From Nocardioidaceae bacterium (GTDB taxonomy: Bacteria; Actinomycetota; Actinomycetes; Propionibacteriales; Nocardioidaceae), in assembly GCA_013361955.1 (NCBI GenBank), contig JABFXA010000211.1:1-47427 (forward strand): a DNA stretch of 47,427 nt, given 5' to 3'. Position numbers and translations under genes: made by a program. Below, piece after piece: positions 1 through 25,344 of this stretch (position 1 is its first letter; each line of letters opens with the position of its first letter). A model generated the notes under the pieces. The model did no database searches. It was given only the letters and a program-made list of their open reading frames with translations, and was not told where the DNA came from.

Positions 1-238
1 CCACCGCCAGGCCCGCCGGCGGCCACCAGGCCACCACCGCCGAGCCGGCGGGGACCAGCCGGCCCGCCACCAGCCCGAACGCGGAGACCCCCAGCAACAC
101 CAGCACGGCGGAGACCACCCAGGCCCCGCCGCCGGACCGCGGGTCCCAGCGGTGCCCGGACGTGGCGTCGTCGACGCCGAGGCGCCCGGGTCGCCCGGGT
201 CGCGGCCGGGCAGAGGCGGCCGTCCGGTCCAGGCGCAT
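1..238 (-). CDS. N-terminus of a MASE1-type integral membrane protein (partial)
   Basis: Only the first 79 codons are inside the window; the gene runs off the left edge. An ATG at 236-238 (minus strand) is preceded by GGAGGCG at a good distance. A cytoplasmic Arg/Pro-rich N-terminus of about 40 residues is followed by a hydrophobic helix (WVVSAVLVLLGVSAFGLVAG) and then by VVAWWPPAGLAV. The W-P-P-A-G motif is typical of MASE1 sensory membrane domains, which usually head GGDEF/EAL, histidine kinase or PP2C proteins. The output domain is outside the window, so the function is unknown. The family call is an inference from a short stretch; the reading frame itself is well supported. Confidence 0.6.
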   Translation of the reverse strand, partial: MRLDRTAASARPRPGRPGRLGVDDATSGHRWDPRSGGGAWVVSAVLVLLGVSAFGLVAGRLVPAGSAVVAWWPPAGLAV

Positions 239-578
239 CCGTTCGCCTCCCCTCGTCTGGCCGGTTCCCGTCGTCGCCCGTCCGGGCGCGCGCGCTCCCC
301 CCGGCATCTTCACATCCCCGCGCTTCCGCCGCCCGGTGATCTGCGGACCGAGCATTCGGGCGCCCGATCGGGCATAGCGTGGTCAAGAAACGGGCCGATC
401 TTGTTTCCGGCCCGATCGGAAATCAGGCGGAGAAGGGCACAGCCATGGGCAAAACCGGCTCGCAACCTCGCACAACCCGGGCACCGGAGTGTGCCCACTC
501 GGGCTCGGTGATGCCCGAGCCCTCATGCAGACTGACGGCGTGGCACAGGTCACACGGCGACCGGCGGGAGGTGACCCG
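239..578. promoter_or_regulatory. Divergent regulatory region upstream of the DeoR gene
   Basis: No convincing gene lies here. A -10-like TAGCGT at 375-380 would start a transcript near 387 reading into the DeoR gene. A perfect 12-bp palindrome GCCCGATCGGGC (362-373) abuts it, and related half sites GGCCGATC (393-400) and CCCGATCGG (411-419) follow, which suggests an operator cluster for the DeoR protein. Downstream, two consecutive hairpins could form in the leader: GGGCAC/GTGCCC (479-496) and GGGCTCGG/CCGAGCCC (501-522). Operator assignment is inference. Confidence 0.4.
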
Positions 579-1340
579 GTGAAGGCGGACGAGCGACAGC
601 GGCAGATCCTGAGCCGCGCCCGCGCGGACGGCCGGGTCGACGTGGTCAGCCTCGCCGCCGACCTCGACGTGGCCGCCGAGACGGTACGCCGCGACCTGCG
701 CGAGCTCGTCGACCGCGGCGTGCTGCAGCGGGTCCACGGCGGCGCCTACCCGGTCGAGAGCGCCGGGTTCGAGAGCAACATCAAGCACCGCTCGACCTCG
801 CTGGTCGCGGAGAAGCGCCGGATCGCCGTGGCGGCCGCGGAGCGGCTGCACGGCGCCGAGACCGTGTACGTCGACGAGGGGGTCACGCCGCAGTTCGTCG
901 CCGAGGCCCTGCGCCCCGAAGGGCCGCTGACCGTCGTCACCGCCTCGTTGCTCGCGGCAGGCGCGCTGGCCGAGAACCCGAACGTCACCGTGCTGCTGCT
1001 CGGCGGCCGGCTGCGCGGCCGCACGCTCGCCACCGTCGACCACTGGGCGTTGCGGATGCTCGACGACCTGGTGCTCGACCTGGCGTTCCTCGGCGCCAAC
1101 GGCATCTCCCGCGACCACGGCCTGACCACCCCCGACCCGGCGGTCGCGGCGGTCAAGGGCCGGGTCGTGCAGCGGGCCCGGCGGCGGGTGTTCGTCGGCC
1201 TGCACACCAAGTTCGGGGCGGCCAGCTTCTGCCGCTTCGCGGAGATCTCGGACTTCGAGGTCCTCGTCACCGACACCGGGCTGAGCCCCAGCGAGGCGCG
1301 GCGGTTCTCGGTTCTCGGGCCCCAGGTGGTGCGCGCCTGA
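579..1340 (+). CDS. DeoR-family transcriptional regulator of the polyol operon
   Basis: A 253-aa regulator. The N-terminal winged helix (residues 1-60) has the DeoR pattern, with RQRQILSRARADGRVDVVSL leading into LDVAAETVRRDLRELVDRGV. The rest is the DeoRC sensor domain, an isomerase-like fold that in this family senses phosphorylated sugars or polyols (VYVDEGVTPQFVAEAL, then LLGGRLRGRTLATV, and FLGANGIS). I chose the GTG at 579 because GGGAGGTGA lies just upstream and the domain starts right there; an in-frame ATG at 525 is possible. It precedes the importer and dehydrogenase genes in the same direction, so it is most likely their local repressor and perhaps autoregulatory through the CCGATCGG palindromes at 362-419. 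Confidence 0.9.
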   Translation: MKADERQRQILSRARADGRVDVVSLAADLDVAAETVRRDLRELVDRGVLQRVHGGAYPVESAGFESNIKHRSTSLVAEKRRIAVAAAERLHGAETVYVDEGVTPQFVAEALRPEGPLTVVTASLLAAGALAENPNVTVLLLGGRLRGRTLATVDHWALRMLDDLVLDLAFLGANGISRDHGLTTPDPAVAAVKGRVVQRARRRVFVGLHTKFGAASFCRFAEISDFEVLVTDTGLSPSEARRFSVLGPQVVRA

Positions 1341-11076: not shown

Positions 11077-12183
11077 ATGCGCGTGGAACGTGCCGTGTCG
11101 CTGTCCGCTGGGTTCGCTGTTGCGTGGTTGGCGCTGCTCGGCTTGCTCAGCTTTGTCGTGCCGCCGGACATTCACCTCGACGCGCTGGTCGCGCTAGCGC
11201 CCATGGCGGCGTGCGCTGCGCTGTCTGTGCGGGCGACGGCGGGGTTCGCGGTGGCGGCGCTCGTGCTGACCGTGTGGCTGGGCGCGCAGAACGGCGCGTG
11301 GGGGACCGGACAGCAGTGGGTCCGTCTGTTCGACGCCGTCGCGGTGAGCGCGGCCGCAGTCGTGATCGCGACGGTCCGCTCGCGGCGTGAGCGGCAGTTG
11401 AACCGGCTCACGAACATCTCGCAGATCGCTCAACAGGCGGTGCTTCCGGTCGTTCCCGCACAGGTCCCCGGCGTGGCCGTCGCGTCCCGGTACGAGTCCG
11501 CGTCGGAGGACGCGTTCGTCGGGGGTGACCTCTATGACTGTTCGTGGACGGAGGGCTACACCCGGTTCATCATCGGCGACGTACGCGGCAAGGGCATCGC
11601 CGCACTCGGGCAGGCAGCCCGCGTGATCCGATCGTTCCGGCAGGCCGCCGCGACCAAGGAGACCCTGCCCGAGGTCGTCGCGGACATGGACACCTACCTG
11701 CAGTCGTTCTTCGGGCCCGAAGACTTCGTCACCGCGGTCGTGGTCGACGTGACGACGCCGGACCAGCTGAAGATCGTCTCCTGCGGGCACCAGCCGGCGC
11801 TCCTCGTCCGGGCGAACGGGGACGCCGAGTTCCTGGATGCGCCGGCCGGGCTTCCGCTCGGGATCGGACACGACTCGGACCCGGTCACCATCCGCTGGGC
11901 CCCAGGAGACCGGCTGCTGCTCTACACCGACGGGATGAGCGAGGCCCGCGACCGGGCGGGTGCCTTCTTCCCGCTGCGGGCCCAGGCCGCACTGCTGCGC
12001 GAGGGCAGCCTCGAGGATGCATTGGACGCACTCCTGGAGCGCCTGTTCGGCCACGTTCCCAGCGGGCAGCTCGGAGACGACCTCGCGGCCGTCCTGTTGG
12101 AGAACGTCCCGACGTCCGTGTCCGGGCGCAGCAGCGGTGATGCGCTCACCGCCCTCCGGGACGACCCCCGGCTGGTTCCGTAG
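11077..12183 (+). CDS. Membrane-anchored PP2C/SpoIIE-type serine phosphatase (RsbU-like)
   Basis: A 368-aa protein. The N-terminal third (residues 5-105) has three or four hydrophobic helices; a linker with RSRRERQLNRL follows, then a PP2C/SpoIIE catalytic domain (about 130-345). Metal-binding acidic motifs are GGDLYDCSW, IIGDVRGKG, LLYTDGMSEARD and GDDLAAVLLE. Such proteins dephosphorylate STAS anti-sigma antagonists and so release a SigB-type sigma factor. The next gene is exactly such a sigma factor and a STAS gene follows. RBS GGAGAGGTGAG. A very similar paralogue lies at 33663-34760. A weak GGGTAA box is present at 10980-10985. Confidence 0.9.
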   Translation: MRVERAVSLSAGFAVAWLALLGLLSFVVPPDIHLDALVALAPMAACAALSVRATAGFAVAALVLTVWLGAQNGAWGTGQQWVRLFDAVAVSAAAVVIATVRSRRERQLNRLTNISQIAQQAVLPVVPAQVPGVAVASRYESASEDAFVGGDLYDCSWTEGYTRFIIGDVRGKGIAALGQAARVIRSFRQAAATKETLPEVVADMDTYLQSFFGPEDFVTAVVVDVTTPDQLKIVSCGHQPALLVRANGDAEFLDAPAGLPLGIGHDSDPVTIRWAPGDRLLLYTDGMSEARDRAGAFFPLRAQAALLREGSLEDALDALLERLFGHVPSGQLGDDLAAVLLENVPTSVSGRSSGDALTALRDDPRLVP

Positions 12184-12461
12184 GCCCGCCGCTGCGACCG
12201 CCGCACCAGGCAAGGAGCCCGTCGTGCCCCGTCGCAGGACAGGCGCGTCAGCCCGGCGAGCCCTGTCGCAGCCCCCGCCCGGTGAGGGCTGCCGTGCGTA
12301 CCTCCACGCGCGTCCCGCATTGACCGCAGTTCTGACTCGCCGCACGTCGCCGTTGGGGTTCTCTGCATTTTTGATGAGGTTGGGTCCCTTTCCTCGGGGT
12401 AACCACCTATCTGAGCAGGCTGGAGAAGACGGCGTGCAACTCCCCCTCGTCGGGAGCAGCG
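12184..12461 (+). promoter_or_regulatory. Intergenic region with SigB-type promoter at 12379-12402
   Basis: GTT at 12379-12381, a 15-nt spacer and GGGTAA at 12397-12402 fit the general-stress sigma consensus and drive the sigma gene at 12462. If real, the sigma factor is autoregulated, as in classic sigB operons. An AT-richer tract (GCATTTTTGATGAG) precedes it. Confidence 0.55.
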
Positions 12462-13295
12462 ATGTCCGAGCTCTCTGCCACGCCCAGCCGTGAGGCGAGC
12501 CCGCCCACCGACTCCCGGCGCAGCACGATCACGCACCGGAACCTCACGAAGGCCCACCACACCCCACCCGGCGCACGGCGAGAGCGGATCCTCGACGAGG
12601 TGGTGGCCGTGAACCTGCCGCTGGCGCGCTCCATCGCGCACCGGTACCAACGTCGCGGTGTCGATCTCGACGACCTGGAGCAGGTGGCCGCGGTCGGGCT
12701 GGTCTACGCCGTACGGCACTTCGACCTGGAACGGGAGAAGGACTTCTTGTCCTACGCGGTCCCCACCATCCGGGGACACGTCCGCAAGCACTTCCGCGAT
12801 GCCGGCTGGTCGGTGCGCCCACCGCGCCGGCTGCAGGACCTCGAGAGACAGATCTCGATCACCGTCGAGCAGCTCACCCAGGAGCACGGTCGCTCCCCGC
12901 GGCCGCGCGAGATCGCCGACCGCCTCGGGGTCGAGGTCGACGACGTGGTCGAGGCGCTCACCGTGAACGACCGCGGCTGCTTCACCCCCACCCATTACGA
13001 CGCCCCGCTGACCAACCCGGCCTCGGGCTCGACGGACTCGGGCCGGCTGAGCGACACCATCCCGGACGACGGACCGGACGACCGCGACGCCGCCGAGGCC
13101 CGGCTGCTGCTGGCCCCCGCCGTCAGGTCCCTGCCCGAGCGGGACCGCATCATCGTGCGGATGCGGTTCTTCGAGGGCCGGACCCAGTCCGAGATCGGCC
13201 AGGAGATCGGCGTCACACAGATGCAGGTCTCCCGGCTCATCACCCGCATCCTCAACGAGCTGCGAACCAAGATCGACGACGCACCGCGGGCCTGA
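12462..13295 (+). CDS. SigB/SigF/SigG-family RNA polymerase sigma factor (general stress)
   Basis: A 277-aa group-3 sigma factor. Region 2 (about residues 45-115) contains AVNLPLARSIAHRYQRRGVD, DLEQVAAVGLVYAVRHFD and SYAVPTIRGHVRKHFRD. Region 3 follows (RRLQDLERQISITVEQLTQE, GRSPRPREIADRLGV). Region 4 (about 215-265) contains LPERDRIIVRMRFFEGRTQS and IGVTQMQVSRLITRIL, the -35 recognition helix. It lacks the ECF truncation and the primary-sigma region 1. The neighbours, a PP2C phosphatase and a STAS protein, are the partner-switch regulators of this sigma class. No RsbW-type anti-sigma kinase is adjacent; the closest candidate is the HATPase protein at 35820. GGGAG precedes the ATG. Confidence 0.92.
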   Translation: MSELSATPSREASPPTDSRRSTITHRNLTKAHHTPPGARRERILDEVVAVNLPLARSIAHRYQRRGVDLDDLEQVAAVGLVYAVRHFDLEREKDFLSYAVPTIRGHVRKHFRDAGWSVRPPRRLQDLERQISITVEQLTQEHGRSPRPREIADRLGVEVDDVVEALTVNDRGCFTPTHYDAPLTNPASGSTDSGRLSDTIPDDGPDDRDAAEARLLLAPAVRSLPERDRIIVRMRFFEGRTQSEIGQEIGVTQMQVSRLITRILNELRTKIDDAPRA

Positions 13296-13350
13296 CCTGA
13301 CGTCGCCGCCCTCCCCTCGGTGCCGGCCGGCTCATCGACCCGCACGGATG

Positions 13351-13758
13351 CTAGGGCCTCGGCTCGATCGTCACGTTGATGACAGCGTCCATCCCCGTCA
13401 TCCTCATCACCCGGGCCACGGGCCCTTCGGTACAAGCGGCGGAGAGGCTGCCGCCTCGGCTGACGAGGTAGCGGCGCGCTGCCACGAGAGTGCCAAGCGC
13501 GTACGAATCCATGAACGAGACGGCCCGCAGGTCGAGTGTCACCTTCGATCCAGCAAGCAGGGTCGGCCCGAAGATGACGCTCCGCAAGCGAGGTGCGGTC
13601 GACAGATCGAGCTCGCCCGTGACGCGAACACGCGGCTCACCACTCGTGCTGCCGTGGACCTCGACGTTGAAGGGCGGCTCTCGGTGGTCCGTTGCGTCTC
13701 GGGTCCCTGTGGTCGGTTCGGTCACGTCAGCCTCCGCCTGCGGCCGATCGGCCGTCAT
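13351..13758 (-). CDS. STAS-domain anti-sigma factor antagonist
   Basis: A 135-aa protein on the opposite strand to the sigma gene, converging on it. The STAS domain (about residues 28-130) shows VRVTGELDLSTAPRLRSVI, VTLDLRAVSFMDSYALGTLV and MRMTGMDAVINV. The phosphorylatable residue of the antagonist, usually in D-S/T-S-G, falls in FMDSYALGT. It should bind an HATPase anti-sigma factor when unphosphorylated and be reactivated by a PP2C phosphatase such as the one at 11077. The start is uncertain: ATG 13758 fits the domain, ATG 13770 is also in frame, and the frame stays open to 14055. Confidence 0.85.
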   Translation of the reverse strand: MTADRPQAEADVTEPTTGTRDATDHREPPFNVEVHGSTSGEPRVRVTGELDLSTAPRLRSVIFGPTLLAGSKVTLDLRAVSFMDSYALGTLVAARRYLVSRGGSLSAACTEGPVARVMRMTGMDAVINVTIEPRP

Positions 13759-14076
13759 GGAACGGCGCATGGCTGGACCGTCTACCACACGGTATCTGTG
13801 GGTGACGCGAGCCGGAACATTTCGCACGACAAAGTTCCGACGGGACGCGCTCGCGCTGGCGGCGGGGGTCTTGTCGAGTGGACGTGGCGCGCAGCCTGGG
13901 CACGACGAAGGGTCCGGCCCTGGTTGCACGGCACCCCGACCCAGCGGCACCTCGCGCAGGGCGCCGTCGAGGTGCTCCTGGTCCCATCCGGTCCATACCA
14001 GCCATCCGGTGGCCGCGCTTGAAAGTCGAAGCGCTGGGCATAGACGGCTGGACACAGCACGTGGGAGGGATTCGGT
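13759..14076. other. Gene-free divergent region between STAS and DUF6458 genes
   Basis: No supported gene. TTGAAA (14019-14024), a 16-nt spacer and TAGACG (14041-14046) could be a housekeeping promoter for the gene at 14077. The minus-strand frame of the STAS gene is open through most of this region, but the extension resembles no protein and has no ribosome-binding site. Confidence 0.4.
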
Positions 14077-15151: not shown

Positions 15152-15790
15152 CTACAGCCGCAGCTGCCCGAGGATCTGGTTCAGCAGATCGGTGATCTGC
15201 GTGAGCAGCCCGGACAGCGGCGTGCCGTCCAGCAGCCCCGCCACGGCGCAGAGCAGGTTGCCGAGCAGGTTGCCGGGGCCCGGGACCGCGACGATGTCGA
15301 GCACGACGCGGTTCAGGTGCACGGTGAGGCCGAGCAGGTTCAGGTCCAGCGGACCGAGCACCAGGTTCAAGATGTCGCACGACGCGGCTGCGGCGCCGGC
15401 GAGACCACGTCCGCCGACCGCGGAGACGGCCGAGCTCCCGTTGGCCCGCTTCACCGGGATGCTGACCTCCTGGGAGGCCGTGCGCAGTGTGCCACCCTTG
15501 CGCACCACCGCGTCGATCACGCCGTCGGCCATCAGCTTGCCGCCCTGCGTGCTGAACGACGTGGGTGTGAAGGTGCCGGTGACCCGGTGACCGTTGCTGG
15601 CCATGCCGACGATGCGAGACTTCACCAGCCCCTGCTCATTCTGCATGACCACCTTGCTCGCCGCAGAGTGCTTGGCAGCGCGTGAGGCCGTGGTGGCGCC
15701 GCTGGACGCGCCCGGTGACGACAGCACCAGCGCCAGCGCTATCAGGGTGGTGACCCCCAGCGCCATCGTTCTCTTCCCCAGTCGGAACAT
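15152..15790 (-). CDS. Secreted protein of unknown function
   Basis: A 212-aa exported protein. From ATG 15790 (behind GGGAGGGAACGTC) the N-terminus MFRLGKRTMALGV leads into a hydrophobic signal segment with cleavage near SSGATT. The mature part has a strand-rich middle (GHRVTGTFTPTSFSTQGGKL) and a hydrophobic C-terminal third rich in Leu, Gly and Asn: NLVLGPLDLNLLGLTVHLNR, then VPGPGNLLGNLLCAVAGLLD with two Cys (ASCDILN and NLLCAV) likely disulfide-linked. This C-terminal block recurs in many actinobacterial secreted hypothetical proteins; its function is not known to me. Transcribed away from the ECF sigma gene. Confidence 0.78.
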   Translation of the reverse strand: MFRLGKRTMALGVTTLIALALVLSSPGASSGATTASRAAKHSAASKVVMQNEQGLVKSRIVGMASNGHRVTGTFTPTSFSTQGGKLMADGVIDAVVRKGGTLRTASQEVSIPVKRANGSSAVSAVGGRGLAGAAAASCDILNLVLGPLDLNLLGLTVHLNRVVLDIVAVPGPGNLLGNLLCAVAGLLDGTPLSGLLTQITDLLNQILGQLRL

Positions 15791-16025
15791 GACGTTCCCT
15801 CCCATACAAGCTCGCCGACCCGATGCCAGCGAATTCCCATGGCCGTGTCCACGCGGCTGGGTCCCAAACGGCGTCAACGCTGAAAACGTTTCCTACCTTC
15901 GGTATGAGAACACGTTGCTGCGGGTGGAGCGGACCGCGCTCACCCGGCTGGTTGGCGGTGGTTGACCGAGAAGGGGCCTTTGCCCGTAACCTGCTCCCCG
16001 CCGCTGGAGGGCGGTGTGGAGGGTG
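15791..16025. promoter_or_regulatory. Divergent promoter region between secreted protein and ECF sigma genes
   Basis: Contains the AT-richer stretch GAAAACGTTTCC (about 15881) with an AACGTT palindrome, and a small dyad TACC-TTC-GGTA (15894-15904). These are plausible promoter or operator elements, but no clear -35/-10 pair can be assigned. Confidence 0.3.
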
Positions 16026-16628
16026 ATGCGGGACTTCGAGTCGGTGCTCGCGGCCGCTCGGGACGGTGACGAGGCCGCGTTCGTCGCGCTGTTCCGGTCG
16101 GTCCAGCCTGCGCTGCTGCGCTACCTCACGACGCTGGGTGGTCCGGTCGCGGAGGACGCCGCGGCAGAGACCTGGGTGTCCGTCGTGAAGGGGCTGACCC
16201 GCTTCGCCGGTGACGAGCACGGCTTCCGGGCCTGGGTGTTCACGATCGGCCACGCACGCCTCCGGGACGCCCAGCGAACTGCCTACCGGGCGCCGGTCCC
16301 GGTCGACGCGCACACCGAGCTCGCTGACCGGCCGTCGGCGGACGACGTGCTCGAGTCGGTCGGCGAGCTGCTCACCACCGAGGCCGCGCTCCGGCTGATC
16401 GCGAGGCTGCCGCGCGACCAGGCCGAGGCGGTGCTGCTGCGGCACGTGGCCGGCCTGGACGTGGCTCGCGTCGCCGAGGTGATGGGCAAGCGTCCAGGTG
16501 CGGTCCGGGTCGCGACCCACCGCGGTCTGCGCCGCCTGGCTGCGCTCTACGAGCACGTGGGTCCGGCGCAACCAGCCGAAGGGCCGGATGCGGGATGTAA
16601 CGCCCTGGGGACGCGGATCGATGACTGA
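16026..16628 (+). CDS. ECF-type RNA polymerase sigma factor
   Basis: A 200-aa sigma factor with only regions 2 and 4. Region 2: FVALFRSVQPALLRYLTTLG, VAEDAAAETWVSVVKGLTRF, and FRAWVFTIGHARLRDAQRT. Region 4: LIARLPRDQAEAVLLRHVAG then LDVARVAEVMGKRPGAVRVA with a helix-turn-helix. The ATG at 16026 follows GGAGGG. The next gene, 6 nt downstream, encodes a single-pass membrane protein, the typical cognate anti-sigma arrangement. The trigger is unknown. Confidence 0.9.
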   Translation: MRDFESVLAAARDGDEAAFVALFRSVQPALLRYLTTLGGPVAEDAAAETWVSVVKGLTRFAGDEHGFRAWVFTIGHARLRDAQRTAYRAPVPVDAHTELADRPSADDVLESVGELLTTEAALRLIARLPRDQAEAVLLRHVAGLDVARVAEVMGKRPGAVRVATHRGLRRLAALYEHVGPAQPAEGPDAGCNALGTRIDD

Positions 16629-17793: not shown

Positions 17794-20223
17794 CTAAGGC
17801 GGTGGCGAGGGCGCTGGCGTTGAGGTTTCCGGTTGCGGTGACGACGCCGACGAGGTGGCGGTGCTCGGGTCTGGCGGAGGCTCTGCGCTCGACGGCGTCG
17901 TGCTCGGAGCGTCGGAGGTGGTGGGATCGGGCGCCGGCGTACTCGACGGCGACCCCGCGGGCCCCGTACCGGGTGGGTCGGTGGAGGGGGAGCCGGCCGC
18001 CGTCTCGTCGGGCGTGACGGTCCCCGTGGACTGGGTGTCGGAAGGAGCCGGTGTCGAGGTGGAGGCGGTCGGTGCCGACGGCTCGTCGTCGAGGATGGCG
18101 ATGATCTCCGTCTTGAAGCCGTCGAGCTGGGCGGAGATCTCGGTCAGCGTGTACGTCGTGATGTGGTGACCGAACTGGATCAGGCGGTCCCAGACATCCG
18201 CTAGAGCGGTCAGCTGTTCCTGTCCAGGGGTGTTCTCGACGGAGAGCACGAGCTGGCTGGCGATCGCGGCGGTGATGCACTGGTAGCAGTCGTAGTTGGC
18301 GGCCACGGAGAGGTTCTGTGGGATCACCACGTGGGCGTCGTCCATGATCAGCACGACCTGGAAGGCGACGGCGACCGTCACGCAGTTCGAGCACGAGGCG
18401 TAGGCATGGGCCTCGTTGACGTTGTCGACCTCGTCGCCGGTGGCCCACACGAGCGCGAAGGCGACGTCGTAGACCACGGAGTCGTCGGTGGTGTTGAACG
18501 CCCCCGCCTGGTTGTCCCCCTCGGCGGGCGGTAGTGGCTTGTCGAACGGGAAGACCCACGGTTCGGTCGAGTCACCCGCGGATCCAGGCTGATTCGGCGC
18601 ACGCGTCTGACCGCTGACCTCGGCCGTACGCGGGACGAGGACCATGGCAAGCCGTGGGTGGGACTTGGTCGGCAGTGCCCGCCCCTGCTGGAACGTCGCC
18701 TGCAGCTGTGACCCCGCGGTCAGCCGGCCCGCTGCGGAGCCCCCCGCGGTCAGGTCGCGCTCAGCGGGAAGGGCCTGCGCGCGCAACGCCTGTGCCGGCT
18801 CAGCATCGGCGGGCTCCGCCGCGCCGGCGAGGACCGCGGTGAGCAGGCCTTTCTCGTCCGGCCCGATGGGTCGGTAGCTGCCCGGTCGCGGCGCCCAGGC
18901 CCAGGACAGCGCCGTTGCCACGGCTGCCACCAGGCCGACGGCGACGACCCGCTTGGTCACGGAGCCGCGGCTCCAGCGGACGAGCCCGTAGGTCCACCGT
19001 CGCCCGAGGCGTCCCAGGATGAGGAACCCCGCGAGCACCGGCAGGGCGACCGCCAGGACCTGCAGCGCGTGGCCGGTCACGTCCAGGAGAGTCCCGGTGC
19101 GCCACGCGTCGTGGACCGCGGCCGCGTCCTCCCGCCCGGCGGCCCACGCCGTCCCCACCACCCGCGGCAGCGAGGTCACCAGAGCGAGGAGCATGAACGC
19201 CATCAGCGGGATCGTGATGAGGACCCACGCGGTGATCACGCCGCGGGCCCAGGGCTTGAGGATCCGGTTCTCCGGGCGCGACCACCGGTGCGGCAGGAGA
19301 CCCAGCAGGGTCGGACGGATCCGGTGGTAGAGATCGGGTACGCCGGTGAGGTCGGCGAGCAGGTGGTAGCCGTCGAAGCGCAGCAGCGGCATCAGCTGTT
19401 GCACCATCTGCAGGGTCTGGGTCGCCACCAGCAGGAGCACGGCGTCCCACCGCGTCGCGTACCAGCACAGGAACGTCAGGACGACCACGACGGCGTTGAA
19501 GTACAGACCGCCGAGGTCGGTGCGGACGCGTCCGCCTCTTCCCAGCCGGTAGCTGTCGGTCACGTCGGTGTAGAACGCCGGCCACACCAGGTAGAGGCCG
19601 GCTCCGATCACCCCGGGGTCGGCGCCACCGTAGCGGGCCGCCGCGGCGTGCCCGAACTCGTGGAAGCCGCCGGAGAGCACGGTCACCACGAACACCAGGA
19701 CCAGCAGGTGCGGCCGCTGGAAGGCGTCGTACGCGGCGGGGCCGAGGCCTTGGCGGAAGAAGACCCACCACGTGACCGCCAGGAAGCCGACGACCACCCC
19801 GAACACGAGGGCCGGTCTGAAGAGCACCCGGAACGGGTCGGTCAGCCGACGTGTGGCGTGCGGATCGGTAACGGCGAACTTCAGCCGCAGCGCCAGCAGC
19901 GGGTTGGACTTCTTGACGGGTGGCTGGGACCCATCAGGCAGCCGGAGCAGGCCCAACGGTCGCAGGTGCTGGTCGACCAGCCCAGCCACCGTCTCCGGTG
20001 AGACCTGTCGGCGCATCGTCGCGCTGACGGTGCTCGCGATCTCCGCGCACGTCCGATCGCCGTCCACGGCCTCCAGCACCCGGTACAGCAGCGGGGTCAG
20101 CTGCAGGGTCTGCCCGTCGCTGCGACGAACCAGGGCCGGTGGGGTCCGGTAGCCGGACCCCACCATCGTGCCGAGGAGCTGGAGGTCGTCGGCACGCCGG
20201 GGCGCGTCGACGATCGTGGTCAC
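17794..20223 (-). CDS. M50 membrane metallopeptidase with N-terminal PqqD/RRE-like domain and exported CxxC domain
   Basis: An 809-aa protein. Residues 25-95 look like a PqqD-type winged helix (DGQTLQLTPLLYRVLEAVDG, VAGLVDQHLRPLGLLRLPDG), the fold that recognises leader peptides in RiPP pathways. Then come membrane segments and an M50 (site-2-protease/YydH-like) core: HEFGH at 188-192 gives the zinc ligands and catalytic Glu, LLRFDGYHLLAD near 281-291 the third ligand. More helices follow to about 445. The remaining 360 residues should be extracytoplasmic: a folded domain with two CxxC pairs (CSNC and CYQC) and a Ser/Thr/Pro tail. GTG 20223 overlaps the stop of the repeat-protein gene (GTGA), so the two are translated together. 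The substrate is unknown; the co-translated repeat protein is the obvious candidate. Confidence 0.82.
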   Translation of the reverse strand: MTTIVDAPRRADDLQLLGTMVGSGYRTPPALVRRSDGQTLQLTPLLYRVLEAVDGDRTCAEIASTVSATMRRQVSPETVAGLVDQHLRPLGLLRLPDGSQPPVKKSNPLLALRLKFAVTDPHATRRLTDPFRVLFRPALVFGVVVGFLAVTWWVFFRQGLGPAAYDAFQRPHLLVLVFVVTVLSGGFHEFGHAAAARYGGADPGVIGAGLYLVWPAFYTDVTDSYRLGRGGRVRTDLGGLYFNAVVVVLTFLCWYATRWDAVLLLVATQTLQMVQQLMPLLRFDGYHLLADLTGVPDLYHRIRPTLLGLLPHRWSRPENRILKPWARGVITAWVLITIPLMAFMLLALVTSLPRVVGTAWAAGREDAAAVHDAWRTGTLLDVTGHALQVLAVALPVLAGFLILGRLGRRWTYGLVRWSRGSVTKRVVAVGLVAAVATALSWAWAPRPGSYRPIGPDEKGLLTAVLAGAAEPADAEPAQALRAQALPAERDLTAGGSAAGRLTAGSQLQATFQQGRALPTKSHPRLAMVLVPRTAEVSGQTRAPNQPGSAGDSTEPWVFPFDKPLPPAEGDNQAGAFNTTDDSVVYDVAFALVWATGDEVDNVNEAHAYASCSNCVTVAVAFQVVLIMDDAHVVIPQNLSVAANYDCYQCITAAIASQLVLSVENTPGQEQLTALADVWDRLIQFGHHITTYTLTEISAQLDGFKTEIIAILDDEPSAPTASTSTPAPSDTQSTGTVTPDETAAGSPSTDPPGTGPAGSPSSTPAPDPTTSDAPSTTPSSAEPPPDPSTATSSASSPQPETSTPAPSPPP

Positions 20224-21614
20224 TGCGGTGCGGTGTCAGTGCCCGGCTCGACCGCCGCCTCGCCGGTCGCCGTCGGCTGCGTGCCCGGCTCGGGGGCCGC
20301 CTCCGTCGTCGGCGGAGCGGGCGTCGGGGCCGGGTCGTCCGCCGACGCGGTGTCGGTGTCAGGCGGCGCGACCGATCCCTGGTCGATGGCCGACGTCTGG
20401 TCGGAGGTGGCCACCGCGCTCCCGGTGATCGACTGGTTGATGATGGCGTCCTGCTGCGAGATGGCAGTCGCCGACGAGTCGTCCGAGAGGATGTTGGCGG
20501 AGACCGCGGCGTCGATCGGCGCCGCGACGTTGGCGTTGGCCGCGACCGCACCGTTGATGGGAGCAGCCAGATCGGCGTCCAGGTCGACGTTGACGTCCAC
20601 GTTGAGCAGGTCGCCCTTCAGCAGGTCGCCGGTGTCGAGCCCGCCGACCGTGTCCGTGACGTCGTCGACGATGTCGCCGACGGTCCCGATCACGTGCCCG
20701 GCGGCGTCGAGGACCTGTCCGGTCAGCGGGTCGAGCGCCCCGACCACGTTGCCGGCCGCATCCACGACGTTGCCCGTCGCGCCGTCCAGGACGCCCACCA
20801 CGTTGCCGGCCGCGTCCACGACGGTGGTGCCGTCGACCAGGTCGGTCACGGTGCCGAGCACGTCGCCCACCTGGTTCAGTACCTGACCCGTCAGCGGGTC
20901 CAGCACGCCGACGACGTTGCCGGAAGCGTCGACGACGTTCCCGGTCGCCCCGTTCAGGACCCCGATCACGTCGCCTGTCGAGTCGACGACAGAGGCGCCG
21001 TCGACCAGGTTCGTCACGCTGCCGACGATGGCGCCCGTCGAGTCGAGGACCAGACCCGTGGTCTCGTTGAGTGTCCCCACGACATTGCCGGCCGAGTCGA
21101 CGACGGTGCCCGTGGAGTCGTCCAACGTGCCGAGGATGTGGCCCGTGGAGTCCACCACCACGGTGCCGTCCACCGGGTCGGCCGCTGCGGCGTCCGCTAC
21201 GGCTGCAGGAGCGTCGGTCGCTGCCATCAACGACGGATGCTCGGCGGCGGCGGCGGCGGGTGCCGGGTCGGCGGTCCCGTCGGTCGTCGTGTCGGACTGG
21301 TCGATGTGGCTGTCCTGGAGGCCGGTGGCGATCGCGTCGGCTGTGACGGTCTGGTTGACGGCGACACCCTGGTCGGCCAGGGCCTGGGAGGTCGAGCCGT
21401 CGGACAACAGGTTGGCACTGACCGCCGCGTCGATCGGAGCCACGATGTTGGCGTTCAGGGCGACGGCGAGGTCGATCGGGGCCGCCCCGTCGATCGCCAG
21501 GTCCACGTCCGCCGCAAGATCCAGGATCGAGACGACTTCCTTGTCCGGCAGTGCAGTCGCGCCCTCGCTTGCCAGCTCCTCAGGCGTGAGCGGGGCGAAG
21601 TCTTCGGTGCTCAA
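20220..21614 (-). CDS. Repeat protein without signal peptide, partner of the M50 peptidase
   Basis: A 464-aa protein from TTG 21614, chosen because AGGGAGGGAGA lies 6 nt upstream; the frame extends to 21758 without another good site. Residues 1-40 form an acidic leader-like segment with LPDKEVVSILDL. Two related modules containing APIDAAVSANLLSD (residues 45-110) and APIDAAVSANILSD (about 330-400) flank a central array (about 151-325) of nine 18-19-residue units of the type V-V-D-x-x-G-N-V-V-G-x-L-D-x-x-T-G, arranged as three higher-order repeats of about 56 residues. The C-terminus is Pro/Ala/Thr/Glu-rich. No signal peptide, membrane helix, sorting signal or Cys. Probably exported or processed with the M50 protein; function unknown. 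Confidence 0.72.
   Translation of the reverse strand: MSTEDFAPLTPEELASEGATALPDKEVVSILDLAADVDLAIDGAAPIDLAVALNANIVAPIDAAVSANLLSDGSTSQALADQGVAVNQTVTADAIATGLQDSHIDQSDTTTDGTADPAPAAAAAEHPSLMAATDAPAAVADAAAADPVDGTVVVDSTGHILGTLDDSTGTVVDSAGNVVGTLNETTGLVLDSTGAIVGSVTNLVDGASVVDSTGDVIGVLNGATGNVVDASGNVVGVLDPLTGQVLNQVGDVLGTVTDLVDGTTVVDAAGNVVGVLDGATGNVVDAAGNVVGALDPLTGQVLDAAGHVIGTVGDIVDDVTDTVGGLDTGDLLKGDLLNVDVNVDLDADLAAPINGAVAANANVAAPIDAAVSANILSDDSSATAISQQDAIINQSITGSAVATSDQTSAIDQGSVAPPDTDTASADDPAPTPAPPTTEAAPEPGTQPTATGEAAVEPGTDTAPQ
20640..21170 (-). repeat. Degenerate repeats inside the repeat-protein gene (about 55 nt, higher order about 168 nt)
   Basis: Nine units of 18-19 codons encode Asp/Gly/Val-rich repeats. 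Units 1, 4 and 7 begin T/S-V-V-D, units 3, 6 and 9 end in V-T-N/D-L-V-D-G or a variant, giving three blocks of three. DNA motifs such as GACGTTGCC and GTCGACGAC recur across the blocks. Confidence 0.75.
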
Positions 21615-24750: not shown

Positions 24751-25344
24751 GTGGCGGTCACCGGCATCGAGACTCGTCCCGTGGGTCCGGATGACCTGGC
24801 GGGCCTGGCCGCGCTCTTCGAGGCCTACCGGAACACCCGCCGGTGCTGGTGCATGTCGTTCTGCCTGAGCCGCACCGAGTTCGCGCTCGGCTGGCTGACC
24901 GGCGGCAACCGGCGCCGTTTCGAGGCCGCGACCGCCGAGGGGGTGACGATGGGGCTCCTGGCCTCGGTGTCGGGCGAGACCGTCGGGTGGTGTGCCTGCG
25001 GCCCGAGGTCCCGGTACGCCGGAGCCGGTGCCGCCCGGCCGCAGCTGCTGCGCGAGCACGATCCCGACGACGACGACGTGGTCTGGCTGGTGCCGTGCCT
25101 CTTCGTGCGAGCCGACCACCGGTCCCGAGGGATCACCCACACGCTCGTGCGCGCCGCGGTCGACGAGGCACGCCGCGAGGGCGCCGTGGCTGTCGAGGGC
25201 TGGCCCGTCACCGGTCCTGAGCGCGGCCTCGCGGACGCCCACCTCGGCCGGGAGAGCACGTTCGCGAGCCTCGGCTTCCGGTGCGTGTCGCGGCCGACGC
25301 CGAGCCGCGCGATCATGCGGCTCCCGCTCGTCGAGGAGCCGTAG
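24751..25344 (+). CDS. GNAT-family N-acetyltransferase
   Basis: A 197-aa acetyltransferase. The acetyl-CoA-binding core is LVPCLFVRADHRSRGITHTL with the R-x-x-G-I/x-T-like turn (HRSRGI), followed by AVDEARREGAVAVEGWPV. The N-terminal part carries a Cys/Trp-rich motif (RRCWCMSFC) seen in one GNAT subgroup that includes small-molecule modifiers. The GTG at 24751 starts the protein at the family position. The gene ends just before a strong terminator. Acceptor unknown. Confidence 0.82.
   Translation: MAVTGIETRPVGPDDLAGLAALFEAYRNTRRCWCMSFCLSRTEFALGWLTGGNRRRFEAATAEGVTMGLLASVSGETVGWCACGPRSRYAGAGAARPQLLREHDPDDDDVVWLVPCLFVRADHRSRGITHTLVRAAVDEARREGAVAVEGWPVTGPERGLADAHLGRESTFASLGFRCVSRPTPSRAIMRLPLVEEP

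Follow-up and report, generated by a model that had tools for sequence, protein, structure and literature searches.

In a 47,427-nucleotide stretch of a Nocardioidaceae genome (assembly GCA_013361955.1, contig JABFXA010000211.1; here called the window), two overlapping genes encode an M50-type membrane peptidase with a PqqD/RRE-like N-terminus (RRE-M50) and a repeat protein. We propose that the two genes probably constitute a leader-guided maturation system with a surface-delivered beta-hairpin product. Their pairing is near-obligatory in the loci examined. As an initial annotation of this DNA had noted, the genes overlap by 4 bp (GTGA), and the same pair with the same 4-bp overlap was found again in 3/3 named relatives. 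In the proposed mechanism, the RRE domain, presumably on the cytoplasmic side, would bind the leader of the substrate (LTPEEL...ALPDKEVVSIL), and the intramembrane M50 site would then take this leader off. The beta-hairpin modules would reach the cell surface via the peptidase itself or together with it, where an exterior CxxC domain of the peptidase, itself consisting of comparable beta-hairpins, may serve as their receiver, anchor or nucleation site.

The distribution of the two proteins was determined with sequence profiles. The M50 profile matched 52 of 296 genomes of the class at E ≤ 1e-20, 46 of these below 1e-100, and the family was present in 25 of 296 genomes of a phylum sample. The partner profile (E ≤ 1e-5) matched 24 of the 296 class genomes, 23 of which are also M50 genomes, so that the two genes travel together as had been suspected. 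In the exception, G216, the partner match occupies 238-888 (minus strand) and starts 238 bp from the contig end; there is no M50 match, and a downstream M50 gene would be expected at or off that end. In G146, the M50 gene (157 bp from a contig end) and the partner peptides lie on separate contigs. Gene neighbourhoods were compared in 79 loci, comprising the window, the three named relatives, two Streptomyces plasmids, 53 loci from searches of relatives, order and class, and 20 from the phylum search. This set leaves out the class matches G238, G248:C446, G287, G351, G367, G173 and seven weaker than 1e-30, and the phylum matches G520:C23, G559:C6 and weak ones.

A leader was scored when an open reading frame (ORF) on the same strand, at most 1700 bp upstream of the peptidase core, contained LPx[RK]xx[LVIMAS] with at least three acidic residues in the preceding 18. 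Such an ORF was found in 71 of the 79 RRE-M50 loci. Control regions contained one in 4/79 loci (downstream), 7/79 (antisense) and 4/64 (1700-3400 bp upstream); these denominators are uncorrected for contig ends. The pattern was set after viewing the other 59 loci, while the 20 phylum loci had been fetched earlier but were unviewed; the latter contained it in 14 of 20 cases versus 1, 3 and 0 in the controls. Residue S was added after the first run on these 20 loci, and the run without it also gave 14/20. The leader consensus is L[ST]xxE[LI]xx[EQ]x[GA]xxLPx[RK]E. Among 105 distinct leader windows, conservation extends beyond the pattern (L at -13 in 61%, L at -8 in 84%, G/A at -3 in 81% and E at +4 in 75%), and E/Q at -5 occurs in 92%, a value partly favoured by the acid filter. 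This conserved leader fits recruitment by an RRE domain, and the leader is very likely the element that the RRE domain of the peptidase binds. One leader ORF was counted in 43 loci, two in 17 and three in 11 (two or three in 28/71), a few of the counts being chance matches (e.g., L079 and L190). The stretch from the motif to the C-terminus had a median length of 57 residues (quartiles 47 and 195). Among the loci missed by the pattern, L095 and L108 have less than 200 bp upstream, L183, L189 and L192 contain partner-like peptides outside the pattern, and L178 and L179 have partner-like ORFs on the opposite strand.

Judged by their sequences, the partners are largely short peptides, and the window pair appears as one case of a wider system. 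Type A combines module proteins carrying LPxKE with an M50 protein that has a fused CxxC domain (28/79 by regular expression, 28/28 with such a partner). In type B, the M50 protein is fused to a MinD/ParA-like ATPase, the peptides are short (~63-85 residues) and the CxxC protein is separate, with an N-terminus that is signal-like by eye. Type C has up to three tandem peptides of ~70 residues with GEELPDRE...NAAVAANVLSDNSVAYANAEQ, and in several loci a CxxC gene directly downstream; type D has AELLPGREALG peptides, often two, and types E, F and G have other cores. The C-terminal MinD/ParA-like ATPase domain (GKTT) was seen in L041-L045 and L104, which share a neighbouring ORF of ~259 aa resembling a BTAD-type regulator by eye. 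The partners in L106 and L011 show a GELLPERxxLS-type leader followed by Gly-rich, in some cases His-rich, Cys-containing cores unlike the hairpin cores. Scanning the partner peptides against Pfam and NCBIfam gave nothing above cut-off; one peptide (L190:4933-5298, minus strand) had a sub-threshold match to chaplin ChpA-C (E 0.016, 15.5 vs 21 bits). Spacing between N/Q residues in the partner peptides peaked at 6, 14, 20 and 26 residues, peaks that are inflated by peptide relatedness. When 59 loci were compared, apart from the M50 gene and frames that overlap it, only the type A partner formed a gene cluster present in more than eight loci. Smaller clusters (3-8 loci) were judged by eye among the 40 largest clusters listed, where no recurring modification enzyme was seen in more than a few loci and no widely shared exporter was seen.

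The N-terminus of the M50 protein, earlier described as PqqD/RRE-like over residues 25-95, was modelled from 56 homologous sequences (mean pLDDT, predicted local distance difference test, 87.5). The domain now extends over approximately residues 14-93 and, according to the model, has the PqqD/RRE winged-helix fold (order β-β-β-α-α-α). Searching the PDB with Foldseek returned PqqD (5sxy) as the first match (E 7.6e-3, prob 1.00, template modelling (TM) score 0.53), and GdmN and Rv2067c at ranks 2-4. The matches that followed included leader-bound TbiB1 (5v1u, 5v1v), heterocyclases such as TruD, a lasso synthetase B1 with leader (6jx3), TglHI, PKMT1/2 and MibB; no PDB match was below E 0.001. At E ≤ 1, Pfam PqqD was detected in 19/58 homologous domains, with a best value of 5e-4, and PKMT_2nd, a winged-helix family, in 15/58; the window's own domain matched neither. 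Against PDB sequences, a profile of the domain found PqqD 3g2b at E 0.071, ranked behind unrelated TAB1-type chains.

The HEFGH motif reported at residues 188-192 is present, and H188, E189, G191 and H192 are invariant in 19 aligned M50 sequences, which include the window's own. D284, a likely third zinc ligand, is invariant as well. This invariance of HExxH and D284 suggests that catalysis is probably used, and the M50 protein is predicted from its sequence as the likely protease of the leader. The simplest course of events that accounts for the RRE domain, the leader, the invariant active site and the lack of a commonly shared exporter would be that the leader is bound and then cleaved. The M50 protein of the window had no match to Pfam PF02163. 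Its best NCBIfam model was that of the daptide protease, NF041824, which aligned with residues 29-300 at 97.8 bits where 300 are required, and NF058609 (YydH/LiaK) gave 39.1 bits over residues 149-293 (cut-off 225). A model of residues 1-715 built from 24 sequences (mean pLDDT 77.1) contains six β-strands at 571-662, the part in which the previously noted CSNC and CYQC pairs are found. The N-terminal part is basic and an acidic region follows the last hydrophobic helix, a charge distribution that fits, without proving, an N-inside/C-outside arrangement, and the beta-domain is therefore presumed to be exterior. A sequence search against solved structures found nothing for the repeat protein; for the full M50 protein it returned one match, which lay in the low-complexity tail.

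The repeat protein begins with a leader-like acidic segment, as annotated before, with 10 D/E and 1 K/R in residues 1-40. It contains no Cys, and inspection by eye showed no hydrophobic segment of the signal type (a signal-peptide program was not used), in line with the earlier description of a protein without a signal peptide. The module-repeats-module symmetry was borne out by aligning its N- and C-terminal parts, which scored 231, whereas none of 300 shuffles exceeded 93. Homologues from L003, L004, L008, L009 and L010, and later also L035-L039, L046 and L047, were aligned. The middle repeats match Pfam Bflower_2 (PF21785) with 39.3 bits, above the gathering cut-off of 38 (E 6.6e-10). A beta-flower was matched in 4/6 family members scanned, while 2/6 aligned relatives were without a match. 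In G003 and G004, which belong to the window's genus, the partner retains both modules and has no beta-flower match; that of G004 instead carries a different, Gly/Thr-rich repeat. Since relatives keep both modules without the beta-flower, the core of the protein, as far as sequences indicate, is the leader with the modules, and the beta-flower repeats are a local, lineage-specific insertion.

The exterior domain and the substrate contain similar hairpin sequences, namely CxxCx[TA]xAxAxQ stretches in the former and SxxSxAxAxAxQ in the latter. A joint pattern ([SCT]xx[SC]x[AST]x[AS]x[AS]xQ) was present in 69/130 leader-type ORFs, 28/79 M50 proteins and 39/5055 other ORFs; of 34 such other ORFs listed, 25 are CxxC proteins and three are partner peptides missed by the leader pattern. 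CxxC hairpins were found in 49/79 loci, either fused to the M50 protein (28) or on the same strand at most 2.5 kb downstream (21). The substrate profile matched 6/79 M50 proteins at E ≤ 1; the best match, to the exterior repeats of L180 (E 2.6e-5), reaches beyond the picked positions. Alignment of the SxxS and CxxC hairpin profiles by hhalign gave a probability of 31, above all 200 column-permuted controls, a score that is not counted as proof of homology because both hairpin sets were picked by patterns sharing the Ala/Gln positions. These data bear on the suggestion of a minimal two-component system. Its basis, that no radical-SAM or ABC gene adjoins the pair, stood, as Pfam found none in 20 chosen window ORFs between 9.9 and 29.5 kb. 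The number of components did not, as the CxxC exterior domain is a third part, which is fused here and encoded by a separate gene elsewhere.

Several observations weigh against the proposed system. No partner is visible in L182, and 30/79 loci have neither a fused nor a downstream CxxC hairpin by regular expression, although in three of these (L091, L102 and L179) one occurs elsewhere in the stretch. An ABC-type ATPase gene is present, by eye, in 5/59 loci (L010, L041, L044, L089 and L099). The CxxC-hairpin profile matches no leader ORF at E ≤ 1, and the sequences do not establish that the two hairpins share an ancestor. The first PDB match of the full M50 model was the functional amyloid FapC (9u4u; E 6.3e-3, prob 0.57, TM 0.05/0.19), a resemblance too weak to rely on; SpoIVFB and RRE proteins are also listed. 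The later steps of the mechanism are held with less confidence than the early ones. Export by or with the M50 protein is a plausible step that we place slightly below even chances, and assembly of the substrate on the exterior domain is a more tentative suggestion. Rather unlikely, taken as a whole, is the furthest-reaching version, a new secretion and assembly route in monoderm actinobacteria. Here the RRE would read LPx[RK]E, the M50 protein would cut and translocate the substrate without a Sec signal or an ABC pump, and exterior disulphide-capped CxxC hairpins, fused or encoded nearby, would template SxxS hairpins into a surface polymer.

The RRE and M50 parts, and the short tandem precursors with a common leader and variable cores, could also belong to a pathway for ribosomally synthesized and post-translationally modified peptides (RiPPs). 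In such a pathway, the M50 protein would remove the leader, the repeat protein would be an enlarged precursor, either unmodified or modified by off-locus enzymes, and the product would be a bioactive peptide and not a surface structure. The closest scored models of the M50 protein are indeed RiPP peptidases, and Pfam identified a GNAT acetyltransferase gene at 24751-25344, 2.6 kb upstream of the pair on the opposite strand. However, no other modification gene was found by Pfam in the 20 window ORFs, and none was seen, by eye, to recur beyond a few of the 59 loci described above. To our knowledge, a beta-flower-repeat substrate of 464 aa far exceeds known RiPP precursors in size. We consider a RiPP pathway unlikely.

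Cleavage itself would be dispensable if the RRE-M50 protein were a membrane anchor or chaperone that merely holds the substrate, since an RRE alone would be enough to recruit it and the exterior domain has hairpins like its own; the invariant HExxH and D284 speak against this explanation, which appears improbable. Even less credit is given to a role of the M50 protein in signalling by regulated intramembrane proteolysis, in which it would be the site-2 protease, possibly for the adjoining extracytoplasmic function (ECF) sigma factor, and the repeat protein would be its ligand or sensor. The presence of the sigma gene and of SpoIVFB among the fold-search matches would agree with such a role. 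That gene, however, is on the opposite strand, and the combination of an RRE with a leader does not fit. Sigma-factor signalling was set aside because no sigma-factor cluster was among the clusters listed for the 59 loci, and it is very improbable. Leader-guided maturation with surface delivery is our preferred explanation.

Excerpts of the literature describe related enzymes. In the daptide peptidase MpaP, an RRE is fused N-terminally to an intramembrane site-2 protease that acts as leader peptidase, and leader-bearing short precursors lie nearby (PMC10036551, in excerpt). The system described here resembles it, and NF041824 aligns with residues 29-300 of the window's M50 protein. Unlike MpaP, the window protein falls below the NF041824 cut-off. 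The 20 window ORFs scanned contain no oxidoreductase, aminotransferase or methyltransferase of the daptide kind, and the window system has a different leader, a fused CxxC domain and a 464-aa substrate. An RRE-M50 leader peptidase being known from daptides, the enzyme is not of a wholly new kind. For EpeP, the M50 protease of epipeptides, the available text states that it is thought to perform cleavage and export and that deletion of epeP does not completely abolish the product; the same text presents TglG/TmoG of pearlins as membrane-bound M50 proteases on ribosomal peptides, which, unlike the enzyme proposed here, cleave a modified residue off the C-terminus of a scaffold peptide (PMC10885120, in excerpt). 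The window M50 protein stayed under the NF058609 cut-off, as given above. EpeP and YydH/LiaK (NF058609) presumably represent the same family.

Among surface proteins, Fap is likewise a beta-protein with CxxC, whose proposed nucleator (FapB) and subunit (FapC) share repeats according to the excerpted account (PMC6173800), and the M50 model shows the weak fold match to FapC mentioned above. Fap uses SecYEG, FapF and the C39-type FapD, whereas the window has an RRE-M50 protein and no visible signal peptide. The beta-flower fold (PF21784-PF21786) is described in PMC10584680; in the window the flower is inserted between two modules. On plasmids of Azospirillum and Burkholderia (L013:1-7587, L015:1-9563 and L016:1-9533), the neighbours of an M50 gene are TolC, a pair of adaptor genes and a gene for a giant surface-type protein with autotransporter repeats, Ig-like domains or DUF4347, the Burkholderia giant having LEPR near its N-terminus. 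Pfam shows an M50-HlyD fusion in L013 and L016, and no ABC gene is annotated in the three stretches, the gene table being incomplete. Like the window, these loci place an M50 gene next to a presumed secreted giant protein, but with a HlyD domain in place of the CxxC domain. An RRE in two of the proteobacterial M50-HlyD proteins seemed likely by eye and was unsupported by an RRE profile.

The initial annotation had proposed an undescribed system. This holds in part, as RRE-M50 leader peptidases (MpaP) and combined cleavage and export (EpeP) have precedents in the excerpted papers, while no description of an RRE-M50 protein paired with a leader protein was found in searches of the open-licence PMC literature. 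As far as searches of these papers show, four features are new: the LPx[RK]E leader family, the absence of commonly shared modification enzymes, the CxxC hairpins and a substrate reaching 464 residues. If the proposed mechanism is true, the recognition of leader peptides, a trait known for small modified natural products, would extend to large surface proteins, and a function would be assigned to a peptidase family with the broad occurrence reported above. An M50 protein that translocates its own substrate would export protein with no ATPase. Substrates can readily be spotted by the leader motif.

The positions of the two genes, their parts and the ECF sigma gene are listed in the table.

Features of the RRE-M50/repeat-protein pair and its surroundings (window coordinates; residue numbers refer to the encoded protein)
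Feature	Position	Strand	Remarks
RRE-M50 membrane peptidase gene	17794..20223	-	809 aa, GTG start
RRE (PqqD-like) domain, residues 14-93	19945..20184	-	Model pLDDT 87.5; Foldseek first match PqqD 5sxy
HEFGH zinc-peptidase motif, residues 188-192	19648..19662	-	H188, E189, G191, H192 invariant in 19 sequences
FDGY, residues 283-286	19366..19377	-	D284 conserved throughout the 19-sequence alignment
Presumed exterior beta-domain, residues 571-662, six strands	18238..18513	-	Model
CSNC, residues 611-614	18382-18393	-	In presumed exterior beta-domain
CYQC, residues 646-649	18277-18288	-	In presumed exterior beta-domain
Pro/Ser/Thr-rich C-terminal tail, residues 716-809	17797..18078	-	
Stop/start overlap, repeat-protein gene/M50 gene	20220..20223	-	4 bp, GTGA
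Substrate (repeat) protein gene	20220..21614	-	464 aa, TTG start after GGAGG stretch
Leader LTPEELASEGATALPDKEVVSILDL, residues 9-33	21516..21590	-	Consensus of 105 distinct leader windows; pattern in 71/79 loci
N-module, residues 42-106, hairpin motif SDGSTSQALADQ	21297..21491	-	Homologue alignment, self-alignment
Beta-flower/DUF3659 repeats, ~residues 150-325	20640..21167	-	Pfam PF21785 E 6.6e-10, PF12396 E 5.1e-7
C-module, residues 346-412, copy of N-module, hairpin motif SDDSSATAISQQ	20379..20579	-	Alignment
ECF sigma gene	16014-16628	+	Strand opposite to pair

Further away, genes for a SpoIIE-type phosphatase, a sigma factor and a STAS-domain protein are clustered at 11077-14055 of the window, ~4-7 kb from the pair. 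An ORF at 15152-15877 on the minus strand encodes a protein that looks secreted by eye and gave neither a Pfam nor an NCBIfam match at E ≤ 1; its C-terminal half is rich in Leu and Asn.

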